From: a virus
Strand: one strand, 5' to 3'
DNA length: 56,492 nucleotides
IMG/VR virus record: IMGVR_UViG_3300045996_001187
Location: 1 to 56,492 of that record
The first letter of the stretch is position 1; every line of letters begins with the position of its first letter. Shown here one piece after another: positions 7,823-48,088 of this stretch. Under the pieces are notes generated by a model that was given only the letters and a program-made list of their open reading frames with translations, was not told where the DNA came from and searched no databases. A program made the translations under genes and the position numbers.

Positions 7823-9313
7823 ATGAAGTCGCACCGTAAAATCGCCCTTACCTATTTCAAGCATTCGTGGCCGTTCTGGATCACAATGCTTGCCAGCGTT
7901 GGCGCGTCGGTATTCTACTATCGCACATACTTACCGCTGCCATTTGTAACCGACGACTACCATTTTCTGGGCCTGCGTTACTGGAAGCCAATGGCCGGCT
8001 ATCAGATCAAGCTCGACACTCCATCCGATTTCTTTGCGCTGTTTAGCCCTTATCGCGGCTGGTTCTATCGTCCCTTAGCTTTACTTTACTTCCCCGCCGT
8101 CAAGTACGTGTTCGGTCCTGACCCGTTTGTTTTTCACCTGCTGAACCACGTCATCAACGGTATCGGGATCGGCCTTATGGCCTGGCTGCTATTCCGCCTC
8201 ACTAAATCCATGACGGCAGGAGTGTTAGCCGGCCTGTTCTTCCTGCGGTGGCCAGCCAAAGACGAGGCTATTTGGTGGGTGTCCTGCGTCACTACGCTGG
8301 CCTGTGCCGTCTTCTACCTTCTCACCCTGCATCTCTGGTTATCGTTCCGAGAGACCGGCAAGCGTCGCTACTACGCCGGTGCCTTAGCATCCTTCGTGGC
8401 TGCCCTGCTCTGGAAAAATGACGCTTTTACCTTGCCCGTCGCAATTCTGTTGCTCGACCTCGTTTGCCTAAAGGTTGGATTGAGCCAATGGCGCAAACTG
8501 ACGCTGAATTACTCGCTACCATTGGCGCTATTCGCGGCCTACGCGTGGCTCGAAAAGACGGCAAGCGCCTATTATGTAAGTCTGGAGCCGCGCCTTAATA
8601 AACCGTACGGCGAAACCTTGCAGGATCGGCTTGCCATTATTCCCAAATTCCGCAATCTCGTGTTCGATAACATGCACCAGGTATTCGATGCACGAGACTT
8701 TGCTTATTTGTGGATTCTCGCACCGCTGGCCATGTATTTCGCATGGAAGGCGTCGCCCGAACAACGACGCGCATTTGTCATGTTCGCGGTGCTTTCCGCC
8801 GTCTGTATTGCCGGATTCTCACTCATGGGCGGTAGTCACATCGTGAGTGAGCGCTTCGCCTACACGCCGATTCTGTTATCAGCCATCGCGGCCGCGTGCG
8901 TATGGCCGCGCTCTCCCTCGCCGGTTCCGGCGCTTGCTCTGGCATCGCTTATTCTCGCTCACTTCACCATTCAGGTATACGAGACGGCGTGGACTATGAT
9001 GTCGTACCATTCAACCTACGCAGCCCTACTTTATGGACTATGTGGGGCTTATGGCTATGGCCTCTATCGTTCTGGATGGTCTCAGACATCACAGAAACTC
9101 TACGGTGTGATTATCTGCGCATATTTCGCCCTGCCCTTAGTGCAGCGGTTCGGGCCGCATATCGCCATCGCGGCCTTGGTCGGTGTTGCGGTATGGCACT
9201 ATCGACAGAATATTGAGGTGCCTGCTAAGCCACAAGATCAGGACTCAAAGCTAAAGACCTTTATGTCTCCGTCAAAGTCCTTCCACACTAGCGCTAAAGC
9301 CTCCATAGAGTAG
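7823..9313 (+). CDS. Polytopic GT-C-type glycosyltransferase (seroconversion candidate)
   Basis: 496 residues with about ten to twelve hydrophobic helices. Asp44-Asp45 ('FVTDDYHF') follows the first helix, where GT-C enzymes carry their catalytic acidic pair; 'SERFAYTP' before a later helix is also typical of the family. These enzymes use polyprenyl-phosphate sugars at the membrane. Phage versions usually modify host surface polysaccharide and block superinfection. A TAGAAT box just upstream suggests a very short leader. The last 76 bases overlap the convergent fibre gene. Its orientation, opposite to the tail genes, marks it as cargo. Confidence 0.75.
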   Translation: MKSHRKIALTYFKHSWPFWITMLASVGASVFYYRTYLPLPFVTDDYHFLGLRYWKPMAGYQIKLDTPSDFFALFSPYRGWFYRPLALLYFPAVKYVFGPDPFVFHLLNHVINGIGIGLMAWLLFRLTKSMTAGVLAGLFFLRWPAKDEAIWWVSCVTTLACAVFYLLTLHLWLSFRETGKRRYYAGALASFVAALLWKNDAFTLPVAILLLDLVCLKVGLSQWRKLTLNYSLPLALFAAYAWLEKTASAYYVSLEPRLNKPYGETLQDRLAIIPKFRNLVFDNMHQVFDARDFAYLWILAPLAMYFAWKASPEQRRAFVMFAVLSAVCIAGFSLMGGSHIVSERFAYTPILLSAIAAACVWPRSPSPVPALALASLILAHFTIQVYETAWTMMSYHSTYAALLYGLCGAYGYGLYRSGWSQTSQKLYGVIICAYFALPLVQRFGPHIAIAALVGVAVWHYRQNIEVPAKPQDQDSKLKTFMSPSKSFHTSAKASIE

Positions 9314-21107: not shown

Positions 21108-22160
21108 TTAAACTCCGGCATCGATGGTCCAGATAACAGACTTGTTCGGCACCGGCAGGGCGTTAAGCTGGCACTCGATGTCCAGCTGGCGGCCACCGTT
21201 GCTGGCTTCCATGTAAACCGTGTTGCCGTTCACGTCGATACCGGCGTCCCCGGCCGTGCGAGCGATGTCCATGGCGCGGACAACGGGCGCAAAGGCGGTA
21301 ACACCCACGCGGTTTCCAGCCGGAATCATCAGGACTTTTTCGGCCGGCAATACCTTGGTGCGTGTATAAGCCGTGCCGCCATCGTTGAAAATGTCCAGGC
21401 TGTTTTCGTTGACGAAGAATCGGAAAGCGCTTCCAATATCCTGGGTCAGGCGATCCTCAAGTTGGGTGCGGGTCATCTTGACGCCGTTGGCAAGGTCCGG
21501 CGCATCGGCCAGAATCGCGTTCAAGGTGGCGCGGCGCAGCATGACTCCCTCGGCTGCCCCAATGGTATCCAGACCTTCGATATACCAGGCCAAGAACTCG
21601 TCGTAAGCGTTCAGGCTAGCATCGTTCCAGGCGGTACCTGCGGTCTGCTGCTGGCCCGAATCGATACCGAACGAGGTGGAAAGCGTACGACCCGCTTCCG
21701 GCTCCTTCTGCACGATAGAGCCGGTCGACCAGATGGTGTAGGCGTCAACTTCGATACGGCGATAATTCGCCATTGCGAGCGACTCCACGCGGTCCTGCAA
21801 ACGGACACCCATCTCGTTTTGAATGATGGACTCGTTGCCCCGCGTCTCTTCCGTGATCTTATTCATTTCCTGCTCGGAAAGAGCGTCACGGGTTTCGATG
21901 GGGATAATCGAGTAATCGTTCTTGGCGGGTGTCTGCAAGGGCACCAGGCGGCCACGAGCGTTCCACTCGCGACGGTCAGCAACCGGGCGAAAGTCGATGG
22001 TCGACAATTCGCTGATTTTGGTGCTGGTGACGTTCTTACGCGGGAAAAACACATCCCACGACAGCCGGCCGGTATCGTTGAGCGACACCGCCTGCGCGCG
22101 CACCGTCAGGGCGGCGGCGGAAATTTCGTTTTGTGCGACAAGCCATGAATATGTAGGCAT
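21108..22160 (-). CDS. Major capsid protein (lambda gpE type)
   Basis: 350 residues, the usual size for gpE-type HK97-fold capsid proteins. Order matches: an N-terminal arm, 'DFRPVADRREWNARGRLVP', a long helix region ('LQDRVESLAMANYRRIEVDAYTIW'), and a C-terminal 'GVTAFAPVVRAMDIARTAG'. It follows the scaffold and gpD-like genes, the classic head order. Confidence 0.9.
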   Translation of the reverse strand: MPTYSWLVAQNEISAAALTVRAQAVSLNDTGRLSWDVFFPRKNVTSTKISELSTIDFRPVADRREWNARGRLVPLQTPAKNDYSIIPIETRDALSEQEMNKITEETRGNESIIQNEMGVRLQDRVESLAMANYRRIEVDAYTIWSTGSIVQKEPEAGRTLSTSFGIDSGQQQTAGTAWNDASLNAYDEFLAWYIEGLDTIGAAEGVMLRRATLNAILADAPDLANGVKMTRTQLEDRLTQDIGSAFRFFVNENSLDIFNDGGTAYTRTKVLPAEKVLMIPAGNRVGVTAFAPVVRAMDIARTAGDAGIDVNGNTVYMEASNGGRQLDIECQLNALPVPNKSVIWTIDAGV

Positions 22161-26963: not shown

Positions 26964-28544
26964 TTAACTGAAGAACTTCTTTTTAACGACGGTCGATTGA
27001 GCGGCCGGCGGTGCTTCTGCCTTTAACATCAAATCCGTCAAAATCCACACCGCTGCATCCAATCGGTTCGGCGACGGCTCCCCGGGCACCCAGGAGCACA
27101 TCTCAGACTCAAGCGCCACGAACTCGCCCACATGATGCACTCTGCCGTCCTCGTAAAGCTTCTGAACCGGTTCTGCCCGGGTGAGCTTGCCCCGACTCGC
27201 ATGAACCAACTTCACCCGTGGCGCATTCGGTATCGTGCCAATCGTGATCTCCACCATCTCGCCGCCATTATTCGACTCCGCAACCAACACATCACCGCCA
27301 TGCTGGTGGTACCCATCGACTGCTGCACTAGCCCAGACCTTCGGGCTCCCCTGCACTGACTTGTCATCGAAGACATAGCCGTGGATCACGTCGTTTACCT
27401 TGGCAATGCCCGCCACGATTACGCCGGCTTCATCTCCGGTCGAAGTTGCGGACGGGTCCACCCCGACCCCGACACGTATCAGGTCCGGCATCTCTGACCA
27501 CGAAATTCGATGTGCCTCAATATCCCGCTTGCGGTCCCATAGCCCGTTTTCATCGTCGTCAACTTCCTGTTGCGCCTCTCGTAGAAACGCCGCCCTGCCC
27601 CATTCATTTAACTGTTTCTCGCACGTCTCAAGGCTCTGTCCCTGCCAGGTCGGAGTGCCTGCCGTGATCCGGTAATAGGTCAAACCATTCTCGCCTGTGG
27701 TTGGCTCGAACTCCAGTCCGACCACCGCAGCCTCTACGGTCGGCACTTCCCGGGTGAGGAGGAAATCAGCGCGGCCATCGGCCAGTTGTGAAACGATGCC
27801 ATCCTTGTGTATTTTGTTCTGCACAAATAAAATGGCGCAGTCGCTCGAACCTGCCGGAAGTATCGACTCCGTAATTGTTTCGATCTTCTTTTGGACTTGC
27901 TCCGGTTTTTCATGGCGTTTATCGATGTCATCAAAAATAATCAGGTCCGGCCGGTAGTCGTCCAGCTTAACGCCGCGACTAGCCGCATCCAAACCGAGAG
28001 CCAACACATTAAACCCTGTCTCGCATCGAATCAGGTCAACGCTCCAGCCCTTCGAGTGCCCATACTTGCCGACCGCCCGCCCAATATTCAGGTCTTCTAA
28101 CTTCCCGGCTACGGCCTGAACGTGCGTGTTGGCCCGGTCCTGAGTCTCAGAGACATAGAGCACGAAACGCCGCGCCGGCCGCTTCTCGCCGTTCACTTCT
28201 ACGATGCGGGTGCCGATGCGCACACATCCCAGTTCCGCTGTGCTCGACTTGGCCCCGCCACGAGGCCACACATCCACCCTGGGACGCGGGCGGACTCCCG
28301 GGGTTAGGGCTTCGAACCACTCCCATAGCCGCACATGGCGATCCGCAAACGGGTGCTCCGTTGCCCGAGGGAAACGTTCCTTAAGCCACTGCCGCCACCC
28401 TGCCGAATTATCAATGTACTTGCCCGTTGCCTTAATGCCCCGGTGCCTGCCAGCTACTTTAGCCGCCGTGGAAGATGGAGTCGATAACTTGGTCCGCTGT
28501 GTCCGGCGGGCAAACTTCCCTAATTTTACGGATGACGATATCAA
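26964..28544 (-). CDS. terL: Terminase large subunit
   Basis: 526 residues. ATPase: Walker A-like 'PRGGAKSS' (about 94-101), Walker B 'DLIIFDDID' (200-208). Nuclease: 'GVDPSAT' with Asp363 and later 'ESNNGGEM' and 'NRLDAAVW', the RNase H-like acidic triad. No ATG/GTG is available early; TTG at 28544 has AAGGTGG nine bases upstream, so I use it, giving an 86-base overlap with the small subunit. It packages DNA into the prohead through the portal. Confidence 0.92.
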   Translation of the reverse strand: MISSSVKLGKFARRTQRTKLSTPSSTAAKVAGRHRGIKATGKYIDNSAGWRQWLKERFPRATEHPFADRHVRLWEWFEALTPGVRPRPRVDVWPRGGAKSSTAELGCVRIGTRIVEVNGEKRPARRFVLYVSETQDRANTHVQAVAGKLEDLNIGRAVGKYGHSKGWSVDLIRCETGFNVLALGLDAASRGVKLDDYRPDLIIFDDIDKRHEKPEQVQKKIETITESILPAGSSDCAILFVQNKIHKDGIVSQLADGRADFLLTREVPTVEAAVVGLEFEPTTGENGLTYYRITAGTPTWQGQSLETCEKQLNEWGRAAFLREAQQEVDDDENGLWDRKRDIEAHRISWSEMPDLIRVGVGVDPSATSTGDEAGVIVAGIAKVNDVIHGYVFDDKSVQGSPKVWASAAVDGYHQHGGDVLVAESNNGGEMVEITIGTIPNAPRVKLVHASRGKLTRAEPVQKLYEDGRVHHVGEFVALESEMCSWVPGEPSPNRLDAAVWILTDLMLKAEAPPAAQSTVVKKKFFS

Positions 28545-29595: not shown

Positions 29596-30363
29596 TTATC
29601 GACTTACTGTTATTTCTCCCGGCTTGACATCCAGCCTCAGCCCCGAAAACTCCGCCAGTGCCCTTACCGGCAGCAGTGCGTGTTCGCCCATAAACTTCGG
29701 CTGCACTGATACTTCCCGGCCATTCAGGGTCACAGCCTGTGCGTCCTGATTCCATCCGACCTCAAGCCCCAGAGAGTTCCCCCAGTCCCGAGCGCCTACC
29801 CATGCAGTACCGTTCTGAATGACGGCGCGTATCTTTTTCGCGCCAATAGCAACGTCCCAGGACTTCTCCTTGGCTTCCTCGCACAGATTGCCCCACCGAA
29901 CGAACACATAGCGTTCACTCATGGTGCGCGATAGCGAATAGACGCCGTTGCCGTTGGCACTCCCGTTGTCGTTCGTATTGCCTTCGACTGTCTTGAACTT
30001 CCCGGCCGCCACGGAGGCCACAAAGCCGGTATGGATAGCGTCGTTGCGGCTCGACTTGCTCAGCAGCAAAAAAACGTCCCCCGCTTTCGGTGACGTATCG
30101 AGAATCTTATTGCGCCGCGCCCAATCGAGAATGAAGTCGCAAGAGGCAGTGGGGATCCACGGGTATTCCTTCAGTAAACCCACAGTGATGGAGTGCGCGA
30201 TACACCAATTGACGAACGCTGCGCACCAGGGCCATCCAGAGCCACCCAGCGTTGTGGTGGCCTGATACTCCTGGACGCGCTTGCCCCGGTTGGACGAACC
30301 AATTTCACGGACGCCAATCTCGCCTACTGCGATACCGATAGCGTCTCTGACAATGGGATTCAC
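29596..30363 (-). CDS. CHAP endolysin with copper-amine-oxidase-like C-terminal domain
   Basis: 255 residues, GTG start behind GAGGTGG, overlapping the holin-like stop by four bases. CHAP amidase/endopeptidase domain at 1-160: catalytic Cys47 in 'GWPWCAAF', His111 in 'AIHTGFV', and 'VEGNTNDNG' after it. The last 80 residues ('AWVGARDWGNSLGLEVGWNQDAQAV', 'LLPVRALAEF') match the copper-amine-oxidase N-terminal-like wall-binding domain. No signal peptide, so release depends on the holin. Confidence 0.9.
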   Translation of the reverse strand: MNPIVRDAIGIAVGEIGVREIGSSNRGKRVQEYQATTTLGGSGWPWCAAFVNWCIAHSITVGLLKEYPWIPTASCDFILDWARRNKILDTSPKAGDVFLLLSKSSRNDAIHTGFVASVAAGKFKTVEGNTNDNGSANGNGVYSLSRTMSERYVFVRWGNLCEEAKEKSWDVAIGAKKIRAVIQNGTAWVGARDWGNSLGLEVGWNQDAQAVTLNGREVSVQPKFMGEHALLPVRALAEFSGLRLDVKPGEITVSR

Positions 30364-30812
30364 AGAACCACCTCGCGGTCAATGGGCAGCATGTCTGGAA
30401 TGTCAGCCACGGTTTTTCGATCGACGCGCCTATCCACTACTCCAATCTTTGCCAGTTCGGTACCGACGATACCCTTAGCGACCGCTTCGAAGTCCACGGA
30501 CTCAACAGCACCCAGAGGGGGCAGGCAATCGGCTACCGACGGGTTGGAGGCATTGATTGCAGCCGTAGATACTGCCGCGTCCTTTTTCTTCTCGCTATGG
30601 TTCCACGAGCCAACAACGGCAGCGATCGCTACAAATGCGCCGATCGTAACTTGAACTTTACTGTCGATCGACACGCCCTCAGTGCGCCAAGTTGCGACAG
30701 CCGCACCAGCGGCACCCACCGCTGTAGTCACCATCGAAATAAAAGTGCGATCGGTCAGTCGAGCCCACCATGGAGGGCGTACCATGCTTTCAGCGTGTTG
30801 TAAGACGTCCAT
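30360..30812 (-). CDS. Holin-like protein
   Basis: 150 residues with two hydrophobic helices near the N-terminus ('FISMVTTAVGAAGAAVATW' and 'VQVTIGAFVAIAAVVGSW') and an unusually long polar C-terminal tail. Directly upstream of, and coupled to, the endolysin gene, the classical holin-lysin order. Assigned from topology and position. Confidence 0.75.
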   Translation of the reverse strand: MDVLQHAESMVRPPWWARLTDRTFISMVTTAVGAAGAAVATWRTEGVSIDSKVQVTIGAFVAIAAVVGSWNHSEKKKDAAVSTAAINASNPSVADCLPPLGAVESVDFEAVAKGIVGTELAKIGVVDRRVDRKTVADIPDMLPIDREVVL

Positions 30813-31604: not shown

Positions 31605-31847
31605 TCACTCTGTATCCTCCCGGTAACAGGTGCCGTCTGTGTCAGGGCGCGGCTTGCTCAGTTCGGCCTTTATATCTTCGAGGTCGCCATCAGAAAATCC
31701 TTCAAGGTCACGGGCAGTCAGTAGTGGCTTGGCCGGACCAGATTCAGCTAACATTCGGTCAAATTCAGACATGTCTCCGAAGTCATCCGGAAGTTCCATT
31801 TCGCCATGCGACCAGGCGTTTTCTGATTGTTTCGGTGTGATGCTCAT
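31605..31847 (-). CDS. Hypothetical acidic protein, first late gene
   Basis: 80 residues from the ATG at 31847 (the frame extends to a TTG at 31868). Acidic, probably disordered, with Met/Glu/Asp-rich segments. It is the first gene after the structured late leader and terminator, so any leader-based control acts first here. Confidence 0.65.
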   Translation of the reverse strand: MSITPKQSENAWSHGEMELPDDFGDMSEFDRMLAESGPAKPLLTARDLEGFSDGDLEDIKAELSKPRPDTDGTCYREDTE

Positions 31848-31912
31848 AAAAGGTGCCTGTCTCTCCAAGCTGTCAAGCCTCTGGGCTCTCTTGTTGTCCC
31901 TGCGATCAGGCC

Positions 31913-31997
31913 CCCGGCTTTCAGGTCACATTCTGTCGTCCGTGTGATACGCCTACCTTCATTGGGTAGTAGGCCCCGCCTTTAATCCAAAGCCGGT
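31913..31997. ncRNA. Compact multi-stem element in late leader
   Basis: Closed by a perfect 8-bp helix (CCGGCTTT at 31914-31921 region with AAAGCCGG near 31989-31996). Inside are a TCACA/TGTGA hairpin and a GCCTAC/GTAGGC hairpin whose loop can alternatively pair CTACC/GGGTAG. About 85 nt, between the late-leader terminator and the first late gene. Could be an antiterminator-recruiting RNA (like HK022 put) or a riboswitch; no class recognised. Confidence 0.45.
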
Positions 31998-32004
31998 GCG
32001 ACGA

Positions 32005-32022
32005 AAAGCCCCTCAGGGCGTT
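32005..32022 (-). terminator. Leftward terminator after tRNA-like module
   Basis: Minus strand GCCC-TGAG-GGGC followed by TTTT, starting just after the CCA-like end of the tRNA-like element. The stem is short (4-5 bp), so termination may be partial. It separates the leader RNA from the late genes. Confidence 0.5.
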
Positions 32023-32130
32023 GGCAGCCATGGTAGGAATCGAACCTACTTCGCCGATAGTTGCGGCCCTGTCGCGCCAACCGGTGTTGCTTCAGGACTA
32101 TCGACCGCTTTGCCATTAAGCTACCAGGCT
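32022..32130 (-). tRNA. tRNA-like element with enlarged anticodon arm
   Basis: Minus strand carries a canonical T-arm (GTAGG-TTCGATT-CCTAC), an acceptor 3' strand CATGGCT plus GCCA, and a clear D-arm (GCTT-AATGGCA-AAGC). The paired 5' acceptor strand AGCCTGG has two mismatches. Where the anticodon arm belongs, CGATAGT...ACTATCG pair around a 36-base insert. If the stem is CGATA/TATCG, the first loop bases read GTCCTGA (possible CCU anticodon) and the variable loop is a normal 5 nt. So it is an intron-like insertion, a degenerate tRNA, or the 3' end of a longer RNA. A 7-bp alternative acceptor partner (AGCCGTG) exists at 32285-32279. Confidence 0.4.
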
Positions 32131-32458
32131 AATTGTGCGAGGATACGTTCACTCTACCCCGCGTTACCCTCTCCCTGAACGCTATGACAGGAACTTAACC
32201 CTGACCACCCAGAGGGATATAAGACAACCATGCCCCCGAAGGAACATAGTGGAACATCTGCGCCCTACCATGCACTAACACGGCTCGGACTTCCACACCT
32301 CTCGCGTGTGGCGGGGTCGGCTCCCTGAATCGCTAATGGTTTTGCAAAGCACTATGAGCAACAGGTCTCACCATTCGGAGGTGCCAGGGCAGGTTTATGA
32401 GTCCTACCCCGGCTCCAGGGGACGATGAGGGGCACGCAGGGAGCGACGTGCAATCTAA
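32131..32458 (-). ncRNA. Gene-free structured late leader, 5' part
   Basis: No credible reading frame. Hairpins: GCACG/CGTGC (32432-32451), GGGCAGG/CCTACCC (32387-32409), AATGGT/ACCATT (32335-32340 with 32370-32375), CCACAC/GTGTGG (32293-32311). Together with the tRNA-like end and terminator it would form a leader RNA of about 440 nt from the 32459 promoter box. Confidence 0.5.
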
Positions 32459-32467
32459 AGTATACCC
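32459..32467 (-). promoter_or_regulatory. Late-type promoter box GGGTATACT (main late leader)
   Basis: Third copy of the nonamer, followed by TTAGA, which makes it most like the 5855 copy. Start predicted near 32452, just before the first leader hairpin. A TTGACG lies 21 bases upstream of TATACT, too far for a normal -35. Confidence 0.6.
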
Positions 32468-32525
32468 ATCAGCAAATAAAAATCGCGTCAATTACTAGCA
32501 ATTCATACAACTATGAAATAACTAT

Positions 32526-33682: not shown

Positions 33683-33888
33683 CACTGCACTCCCTGATAA
33701 ATCGGTTTCGGTTTCCTGACCTTCACCCTCACACGTGGCGACGAACGCGCATAGAATCGCCGCTGTGGGGCGTTTGGGGGCTTGGGCATAGATATTCTCA
33801 TTGCGGCCCATGGCGAAGCACTGAGGCGGCGTTGGATGAGGCGCTCGTGGGCTTCGAGATAGTGTTGGTAGTCAGTTTTGCGTTTCAT
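33682..33888 (-). CDS. Small basic protein
   Basis: 68 residues, strongly basic (many Arg/Lys/Pro), with 'HYLEAHERLIQRRL' helix and an extended C-terminus. ATG at 33888 behind GGAG; stop overlaps the next start. Nucleic-acid binding is likely from charge. Confidence 0.65.
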   Translation of the reverse strand: MKRKTDYQHYLEAHERLIQRRLSASPWAAMRISMPKPPNAPQRRFYARSSPRVRVKVRKPKPIYQGVQ

Positions 33889-34226
33889 GGGCTTAACTCC
33901 AAAACCTCAACTTCGACTCGCGGATTGGTTTTGTCATCGAATTGCCGCGCGTGAATCTCGACAATCTGACTGTCGTTCAGGTAAGCCACGCCCTGTAAAC
34001 AATCCAGGATTTGTTTTAAGCGGTTATCGAGGTCGCCGGATTTACGGGGGCGGTAGTAGTCCAGACTGATCGCAACTCGACCGTCCAAGGGTTTGACTTG
34101 CGCAAGCGCTTTGTCTTCCAGCAATGTGGCTTTATACTTTTTTGCCTCGCCGGAGAGAAATACTATCCCCCGGCAACTTCTCCAATAGCGGTTCGCGCTC
34201 GGAGGGAACGGCAACGTGAGTTTCAT
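33885..34226 (-). CDS. rusA: RusA-family Holliday junction resolvase
   Basis: 113 residues. Family signatures: N-terminal 'LPFPPSANRYWR', then 'GDLDNRLKQILDCLQG' with Asp65/Asp67, and 'YLNDSQIVEI' with Asp85, the three acidic metal ligands. It cuts four-way junctions arising during phage recombination/replication and can resolve branches before packaging. Overlaps the next gene by four bases. Confidence 0.9.
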   Translation of the reverse strand: MKLTLPFPPSANRYWRSCRGIVFLSGEAKKYKATLLEDKALAQVKPLDGRVAISLDYYRPRKSGDLDNRLKQILDCLQGVAYLNDSQIVEIHARQFDDKTNPRVEVEVLELSP

Positions 34227-36687: not shown

Positions 36688-37122
36688 CTAGCAGCCTTTG
36701 CGCTTGAAAAACTCTTGAAAGTGCATCCAGCCTTGCGCTGTGTAAAATCCCCATTCGCGTTTCCTGCCTGTCACCCAGACCAAACTAAGCGACTCCCCGC
36801 CGTTGATGGTCTCGACACGATGGGCGTACTTCGCAGGTCGCCATAGCGGAACCAGCGGCCAGCGGCGGAAGCGTCCCCGTTCGGTTTGCTCGATGTACCC
36901 CGGCCATATTGGAATGGTTAGGAAACTCCAGGGGTGGTCATGCAGCTCACGGTCTGCATCAGGCCGGTGGAAGATATGCAGGTAAAGGTTTCCGAATCGC
37001 TCCGACCTAAACAGAAAATAGCGAGTCAGTAAACAACTGTCCTGCGTCCCATCGGCCTCACAGCCCAAAATATACCGGCGCTCGATTTTCAGGCGGTCCA
37101 TCAGGTTTTCGACAAGTCTCAT
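36688..37122 (-). CDS. Phage cupin-like protein
   Basis: 144 residues. 'LHIFHRPDADRELHDHPWSFLTIPIWPGYIE' carries a His-x-His metal motif, and 'HRVETINGGESLSLVW' a second cupin strand pair. The family occurs in many phages and is thought to be a small metal-binding cupin without an assigned substrate. Start at 37122 behind GAAGGAGAAAG. Confidence 0.75.
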   Translation of the reverse strand: MRLVENLMDRLKIERRYILGCEADGTQDSCLLTRYFLFRSERFGNLYLHIFHRPDADRELHDHPWSFLTIPIWPGYIEQTERGRFRRWPLVPLWRPAKYAHRVETINGGESLSLVWVTGRKREWGFYTAQGWMHFQEFFKRKGC

Positions 37123-37276
37123 CGTTCTCTTTCTCCTTCTCTCCCACTTCGCTCTGTGGCCTCAGAACGGGGGTGAATAGTCGTTTATTTTCGTCGCTAT
37201 GGCCCCAAATCTTGGCGCTGGGGGCGGGTTCGCTCGTTTTAGGTAGTCGTGGACCCCTGAAACGCTCTGTGGCGAT

Positions 37277-37453
37277 TTAACGCAGTTTCTGGCGGGGTCT
37301 GCGTCCGAATGTCGCCGCCCACCGGTTCTCTTCGCGCTGAGCGTCCGACATCGGTTTTTCGTCGCTCAGCTTTTTGTCCTGCGTCTCGCGGGTAACTCTG
37401 TCCTGCCGGTGCGTCTTGTCGATTGCTTTGGTCTGACTTTGTTTTCTTGGCAT
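37277..37453 (-). CDS. Small basic helical protein
   Basis: 58 residues from the ATG at 37453, GAGG upstream. Highly charged (Lys/Arg/Glu/Gln), C-terminal 'RRPRQKLR'. Between dnaB and cupin genes. 37123-37276 beyond it shows no gene. Possibly nucleic-acid binding; unknown. Confidence 0.55.
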   Translation of the reverse strand: MPRKQSQTKAIDKTHRQDRVTRETQDKKLSDEKPMSDAQREENRWAATFGRRPRQKLR

Positions 37454-37462
37454 GATGGTCCT

Positions 37463-47735: not shown

Positions 47736-47790
47736 CGCCTTCTCTCCCTCTCATCCAATTTCACGCCCCTGCTCCCAAACCAACAAAGTT

Positions 47791-47967
47791 CTATCTTCTT
47801 GCCGTCAATGAAATAAATTCAAAAGCCATTAGGCTATCACTCTCCCAGTTCCCGAAGTCCATAACGCCTTGACAGATTTCCTCTATCTAGCATCTGAGTT
47901 TTTTCTCCAAAGCATGAGCCGTATGGTCTACGCCGTACTGGCCACGCCGTTTATTCCGTTTCCTCAT
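47791..47967 (-). other. Two micro reading frames in a 350-base gap
   Basis: 47887-47967 encodes 26 residues, very basic at its start, behind GAGAGG with an 8-base spacer; 47791-47862 encodes 23 residues. Both face along the operon between the 48089 and 47735 genes. The rest of 47736-48088 shows a strong AAGGAGGTGA near 48070 followed only by a 7-codon frame. Translation is uncertain; they may be leader peptides or chance frames. Confidence 0.3.
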
Positions 47968-48088
47968 CGTTGGTGCCTCTCTGCATCGTCTGCGATTCTT
48001 GGTGCGTGGTTCGTGTGTGTGGGTCGTTACCTTCTGGTTGTCATTTTCATGGTATCGCTACTTGCTCACCTCCTTAAGGTGCGACTGA

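Follow-up and report, generated by a model that had tools for sequence, protein, structure and literature searches.

Phage tRNA arrays are usually taken as codon-usage supplements. The RNAs already known in their surroundings include the tRNA-associated phage ribozymes of the theta type, which are HDV-like, small and pseudoknotted (PMC10879173), and the tRNA-island RNAs GOLLD and ROOL, phage noncoding RNAs of unknown function that also contain pseudoknots (PMC12286853). The locus described here had been likened, in a sequence-only reading, to yet another system, the pR′/6S/tR′ leader of lambda, on the basis of a promoter box, a gene-free and hairpin-rich stretch with a tRNA-like 3′ module, a terminator and the first late gene, in this order. 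At the core of the locus we found a conserved, covarying and phage-restricted RNA fold, present in single copy and associated with tRNAs, which in this phage is paired with a tRNA mimic.

The element is located in the window, i.e. the whole stretch of 56,492 nucleotides of the IMG/VR virus record IMGVR_UViG_3300045996_001187 that was analysed. The minus strand is ORF-poor between about 31869 and 32525, with replication/RusA genes on one side and lysis/packaging genes on the other. The features are as follows:

33885–34226, minus strand: RusA Holliday junction resolvase, upstream of the element (Pfam PF05866, E 1.7e-18)
32459–32464, minus strand: −10-like hexamer TATACT, read from the sequence, with TTGACG at 32491–32486 (spacing 21 nt)
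32217–32458, minus strand: ORF-free 5′ segment, with a strong GC hairpin within 32340–32445
32137–32216, minus strand: kissing-loop pseudoknot RNA domain (PK) of ~80 nt, with four helices, A, B, C and D
PK helix A: CCCTC from the 32216–32212 region with GAGGG 32171–32167
PK hairpin B: CAGG...CCTG
PK helix C (the pseudoknot, 7 bp): GCGTTCA 32182–32176 with TGAACGT 32151–32145
PK helix D: GCGGGG 32162–32157 with CCTCGC 32142–32137
32022–32130, minus strand: tRNA-like module (Rfam RF00005, 33.5 bits, gathering score 29)
32004–32019, minus strand: weak intrinsic-terminator-like hairpin GCCC-TGAG-GGGC-TTTT, directly 3′ of the CCA
31605–31868, minus strand: 87-aa ORF without a family match, the first one past the element
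29596–30812, minus strand: downstream lysis genes, holin-like (30360–30812) and endolysin (29596–30363) by PHROGs
26964–28544: terminase, downstream of the element
21108–22160: major head protein, downstream of the element

The idea of a gene-free leader before the late genes was correct as to position, the minus strand being ORF-poor ahead of the lysis and packaging genes in a lambda-like gene order, in which the upstream genes comprise, besides RusA, a DnaB-like helicase and O-like replication genes; it has to be qualified, however, by a 60-aa antisense frame, the only ORF of at least 60 aa within 31996–32525. Along the minus strand, from 5′ to 3′, TATACT is followed by ~240 nt without ORF, the pseudoknot block, the tRNA-like with its CCA and the weak hairpin, and between the latter (32019–32004) and the 87-aa ORF there are a further ~135 nt without a sense ORF. 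Here, past the terminator, the segment 31913–31996 (minus strand) can be drawn with a closing stem CCGGCTTT/AAAGCCGG and the inner hairpins GCCTAC/GTAGGC and TCACA/TGTGA, with a stability no greater than that of shuffled sequences. A reading of the element on the plus strand was rejected, because the tRNA-like, the CCA and all the relatives are on the minus strand, and the folding of the plus strand gave a z of 0.13. In the same phage, two more ORF-free gaps of ~350 nt each were observed (window 47736–48088 and 37123–37462), as well as, at 36688–37122 (minus strand), a protein that matches with E 5e-36 the family which PHROGs calls cysteine dioxygenase, an odd cargo for a 56-kb phage.

Other parts of the leader proposal fared less well. 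TATACT is a lone hexamer, with a sequence of 20 nt around it that is unique in the window, and a scan, which does not cover phage- or host-specific promoters, called no sigma-70-type promoter at this site. The richness in hairpins does not exceed what composition would give, the folding of the element as a whole showing no excess of stability over shuffled sequence (z = −0.27), and 32340–32445 is the only part that folds unusually well (z = −3.0). The 5′ segment 32217–32458 had no significant relatives in phages. It contains, at 32335–32321 (minus strand), the sequence TAGCGATTCAGGGAG, which closely resembles the PK core but has one extra base and no evident partner strand, and which is possibly a degenerate duplicate of that core; a 9-bp complement near 32504–32496 was rejected as its partner, because it had been picked out after the fact and lies 5′ of the presumed start. 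As for the terminator, a hairpin with TTTT is indeed present after the CCA, but it is weak (4 GC pairs, −6.8 kcal/mol) and the consensus terminator scan did not flag it. Among the genes tested from RusA to the element, Pfam and PHROGs revealed neither a Q family nor another antitermination family, Q proteins being diverse.

The pseudoknot domain has the topology A5′-B-C5′-A3′-D5′-C3′-D3′, and across its members helix C is formed by the internal-loop strand GCGNNCA of helix A and the strand TGNNCGT of the D hairpin loop; in the window the two are complementary. Among the unpaired letters, TAGAG is invariant in the set and GGGA nearly so (GGAA in locus L076), an invariance to be read together with the fact that most loci were retrieved with patterns that fixed those letters. 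Over 73 nt, the block 32216–32144 shares 85% identity with Myxococcus phage Mx1 (E 3e-13), and the PK of the window, itself a member of the covariance model, scores 92.5 bits with it; this match and this score show that the block is not due to chance.

Compensatory changes in relatives, which the earlier reading had named as a check, were found for the PK domain, with covariation in all four helices. The counts come from a 15-sequence alignment; the alignment with L076, in which the variable arms were misaligned, was left out. Standard pairs make up 93.4% of the cells, compared to 36–51% when the partners are slid by 1–3 columns, and this percentage was reached by none of 500 shuffles. Changes on both sides were observed in 16 of the 25 pairs (shuffle mean 9.2) and the covariation score was 0.466 (shuffle mean 0.168), in both cases with 0/500 shuffles reaching the observed value; the number of further pair types was unexceptional, being reached by 58 of the 500. 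Helix C covaries as TT/AA, TG/CA and CG/CG: L019 has GCGTGCA/TGCACGT and L020 has GCGCGCA/TGCGCGT, both loci having been retrieved with a pattern that left two helix C positions free on both strands. The covariation thus establishes the GCGNNCA/TGNNCGT pairing.

The domain is present in about 12 phage groups (49–485 kb), including BE-type Streptomyces phages, Myxococcus Mx1 and several uncultured large phages, where each group stands for a distinct locus not near-identical to the others, irrespective of kinship. Pattern scans of IMG/VR gave 18 further PK loci, and a pattern with the junctions freed added L076 as its one real case, all its other matches being rejected, while BLAST revealed a type II version of the domain in 62 Streptomyces phage records. 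With the covariance model one strong copy per genome was found in 13 of 13 records, the two extra matches both being weak. On the other side, the exact pattern had no match in 84,980 bacterial and archaeal genomes, and the only match of a relaxed pattern in the same genomes (L067, Gallionellaceae) was attributed to chance at 5.6 bits; no PK domain was found in plasmids, and it is absent from all the terminase-related contigs retrieved by homology. The PK RNA had no family match in Rfam 15 (cmscan, 4227 families) and belongs to none of the families tested. No published description of it was found in the open literature by a search that excluded the 2017 set of 224 candidate structured RNAs, and this set might already include it.

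Most copies of the PK domain lie within or beside tRNA arrays of the same strand, and in every locus with tRNAs the PK strand is the tRNA strand. In Mx1 it is inside an array that also contains a tmRNA, 5 nt after tRNA-Asn; the gaps to the flanking tRNAs are 7 and 7 nt in L019 and −1 and 5 nt in L010; moreover, in L006 PK follows tRNA-Thr at 4 nt, in L015 and L016 it precedes tRNA-Met by 3 nt, and in L076 it lies ~4 nt ahead of a tRNA-like gene. Between PK and tRNA-Met, the Streptomyces phages L007, L008, L012, L014, L017 and L018 have a ~110-nt spacer with a conserved AAGAGGTGGAGCGAAAGC-like sequence, absent in L015 and L016, which is possibly another RNA element.

The window has no tRNA array, and PK is followed 6 nt later by the tRNA-like. 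L020, a phage of 485 kb, has no canonical tRNA in the 10 kb examined. In L011, a contig of 363 kb, no tRNA lies within ~1.2 kb of PK, and only ~11 nt separate the domain from a strong intrinsic terminator, beyond which there is a same-strand ORF; this is the only locus in which the scan placed a terminator within 500 nt downstream of PK. The same contig encodes, at 8153–8517 (minus strand), a complete RNase P RNA of the bacterial class A (299.5 bits), which directly adjoins its tRNA genes and is no more than ~1 kb from PK. In L009, PK is in a 5′-UTR position, between a promoter-like TTGACA-TATACT with a permuted tRNA-like segment and a gene start. This segment (1930–2020, 5′ of PK and directly after TTGACA-TATACT) is a circularly permuted tRNA-like with a T arm, an acceptor closed by a short loop and a D-like arm, and has a weak match to YrlA, the bacterial Y RNA.

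The tRNA-like 3′ module of the window, noticed already from the letters, was confirmed by Rfam. Its D arm GCTT(AATGGCA)AAGC, its T arm GTAGG(TTCGATT)CCTAC and its encoded CCA, preceded by the discriminator G, are canonical, and its acceptor AGCCTGG/CATGGCT is 5/7 paired. The anticodon arm is anomalous: it is an extended stem GUCGAUAGU/ACUAUCGGC of 9 bp closed by a 35-nt loop, so that the module cannot decode. A normal tRNA was rejected, as there is no decodable 7-nt anticodon loop and ARAGORN was negative on the window; allowing introns, ARAGORN gave only an implausible tRNA-Ala with a 172-nt intron, and an archaeal-type tRNA intron was dismissed by eye, given the lack of a bulge-helix-bulge and the continuous 9-bp stem. 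A tmRNA was also rejected, with ARAGORN and the Rfam tmRNA search negative, the tRNA-like contiguous and no tag frame detected.

A scan of ~1.5 Mb of strand sequence gave this extended architecture twice in compact form, in the window and at L020 5365–5472, and 24 Mb of random sequence (first-order Markov) gave none. The case of L020 has 7/7 acceptor pairs, a 13-bp anticodon arm and G-CCA. Both are on the same strand as PK and downstream of it, at ~420 nt in L020. Since the scan criteria were set after the module of the window had been seen, it is the L020 case that represents independent evidence. With regard to the 3′ module, what is chiefly new is that a rare tRNA-like form recurs beside PK in two phages that lack a tRNA array close by, and we infer that the extended tRNA-like stands in for the tRNAs flanking PK elsewhere.

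We give about an even chance to the explanation that PK is a phage noncoding RNA, which tRNA-processing enzymes would normally free from transcripts with tRNAs, and which is here provided with its own tRNA-like and probably acts in trans. The 7-bp kissing pseudoknot would put the near-invariant unpaired GGGA and TAGAG around it. PK RNA would be transcribed together with the tRNAs, and its location on the tRNA strand in arrays, often few nt from tRNA ends, suggests that 3′-end processing of the upstream tRNA and RNase P acting downstream would excise a small RNA. In the window, the tRNA-like would most likely serve as a processing and end-protection module, setting the 3′ end of the PK RNA ahead of the terminator. 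The freed RNA would then most likely have a trans target, a factor of the host or of the phage; this is the least certain step, argued from the one copy per genome, the compact boundaries and the changing neighbours. Some loci do not fit easily: L011 lacks a tRNA close to PK, the 5′-UTR position in L009 would also suit a cis-acting element, and direct 3′-end processing fails to explain the ~420-nt gap in L020, which weakens a simple processing account.

The HDV fold has a nested double-pseudoknot order with a catalytic C, and the covariation-backed helix order of PK differs from that order. This counts against PK being a small, putatively self-cleaving ribozyme that would process tRNA-containing transcripts in the manner of the HDV-like theta RNAs, even if such a precedent exists (PMC10879173) and the near-invariant unpaired nucleotides around a pseudoknot, the variable stems and the tight association with phage tRNAs speak for it. 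Without a match to Rfam ribozymes, with a single copy in genomes that have dozens of tRNAs, and with gaps to the neighbouring tRNAs ranging from ~0 to >1 kb, a ribozyme appears unlikely. The rival closest to the idea of the earlier reading is an RNA-only processive antiterminator acting in cis on long untranslated tRNA or late transcripts, similar to put of HK022 or to EAR, which are structured cis RNAs. This putative role is kept alive by the window, where PK, tRNA-like, terminator-like hairpin and late genes follow one another, and by L011, where PK also precedes a terminator and a same-strand gene; the L009 copy, which a promoter-like site precedes and a gene follows, would fit as well. However, in most phages PK is placed mid-array with many tRNAs upstream, which disfavours a general leader role; moreover, the scan found a terminator close downstream in L011 only and no Q-like protein was recognised, so that we regard this role, too, as improbable.

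That the locus is a lambda-type pR′/6S/tR′ leader under a Q protein, as first proposed, we now consider very unlikely. The position in the genome between replication/RusA and lysis genes and the succession of tRNA-like, weak terminator and late genes speak for it; against it are the lack of a convincing promoter and of a Q family match, the weakness of the hairpin, the absence of PK from terminase-related contigs, and the distribution of the conserved part, which in unrelated phages is mostly mid-array rather than ahead of late operons. The likeness to lambda would be a positional analogy only. Decay was also considered, with the tRNA-like as a degenerate tRNA and PK as a passenger relic of a former array. 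The 5/7 paired acceptor, the second, imperfect copy of the PK core upstream and ORF-free surroundings without relatives would agree with it, but PK retains all its helices and invariant positions, D arm, T arm and CCA are intact, and the tRNA-like of L020 has full acceptor pairing and 13 pairs in the anticodon arm, making a relic quite unlikely. Compared with these alternatives, the processed noncoding RNA remains our preferred explanation.

A broader proposal is more tentative, and we hold it with somewhat less than even confidence: PK may define a new class of phage RNA, a single-copy kissing-loop pseudoknot with a near-invariant core in the tRNA arrays of unrelated phages, to which phages without a suitable array add a tRNA mimic that ends in CCA and has a closed hairpin for an anticodon arm, and PK could be a trans-acting RNA or a ribozyme with a role in translation, in the processing of tRNAs or in defence against or by the host. 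That an RNA in single copy and under strong constraint travels with the arrays of Streptomyces phages, of a Myxococcus phage and of several uncultured large phages suggests that such arrays also carry another RNA function. The ~60 cultured Streptomyces phage records with PK, together with Mx1, make deletion and RNA-seq experiments practical, and the extended-anticodon tRNA mimic that accompanies PK is a second testable novelty.

Compared to the systems described so far, the element has with the lambda pR′-6S-tR′ leader a common position before lysis and packaging genes, whereas the RNA is different, with no Q family recognised among the genes tested and no promoter called by the scan. Similarly to HK022 put and EAR, PK is structured and could be placed ahead of terminators; it differs in being usually mid-array and in having no Rfam covariance match to them. 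The tRNA-like domain of tmRNA, like the module of the window, has a CCA and an elongated anticodon-side helix, while the module has a normal D arm, contiguous halves and no detected tag frame; a separate tmRNA is present in Mx1 and in several Streptomyces phages. With YrlA (RF02553) and phage Ro60/TROVE, the common trait is tRNA mimicry, and the weak YrlA match is just 5′ of PK in L009; by contrast, the tRNA-like of the window is not permuted and PK is outside the YrlA model. TROVE matches were found in 6 of 14 PK records (L061–L066: Mx1, the L006 phage and four Streptomyces phages), five of them above the family cut-off and Mx1 below it, and the window had no TROVE match and no YrlA match by Rfam; an obligate PK-Ro60 link was therefore rejected, and a link with phage Ro60 is a lead only. 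GOLLD and ROOL are, as PK, pseudoknotted noncoding phage RNAs near tRNAs, but they measure several hundred nt against ~80 nt, and PK matches neither in Rfam. Finally, PK differs from the theta ribozymes in its helix order, in having no Rfam HDV-like match, in its single copy and in not being fixed to tRNA 3′ ends, while both are small, pseudoknotted RNAs that adjoin phage tRNAs.
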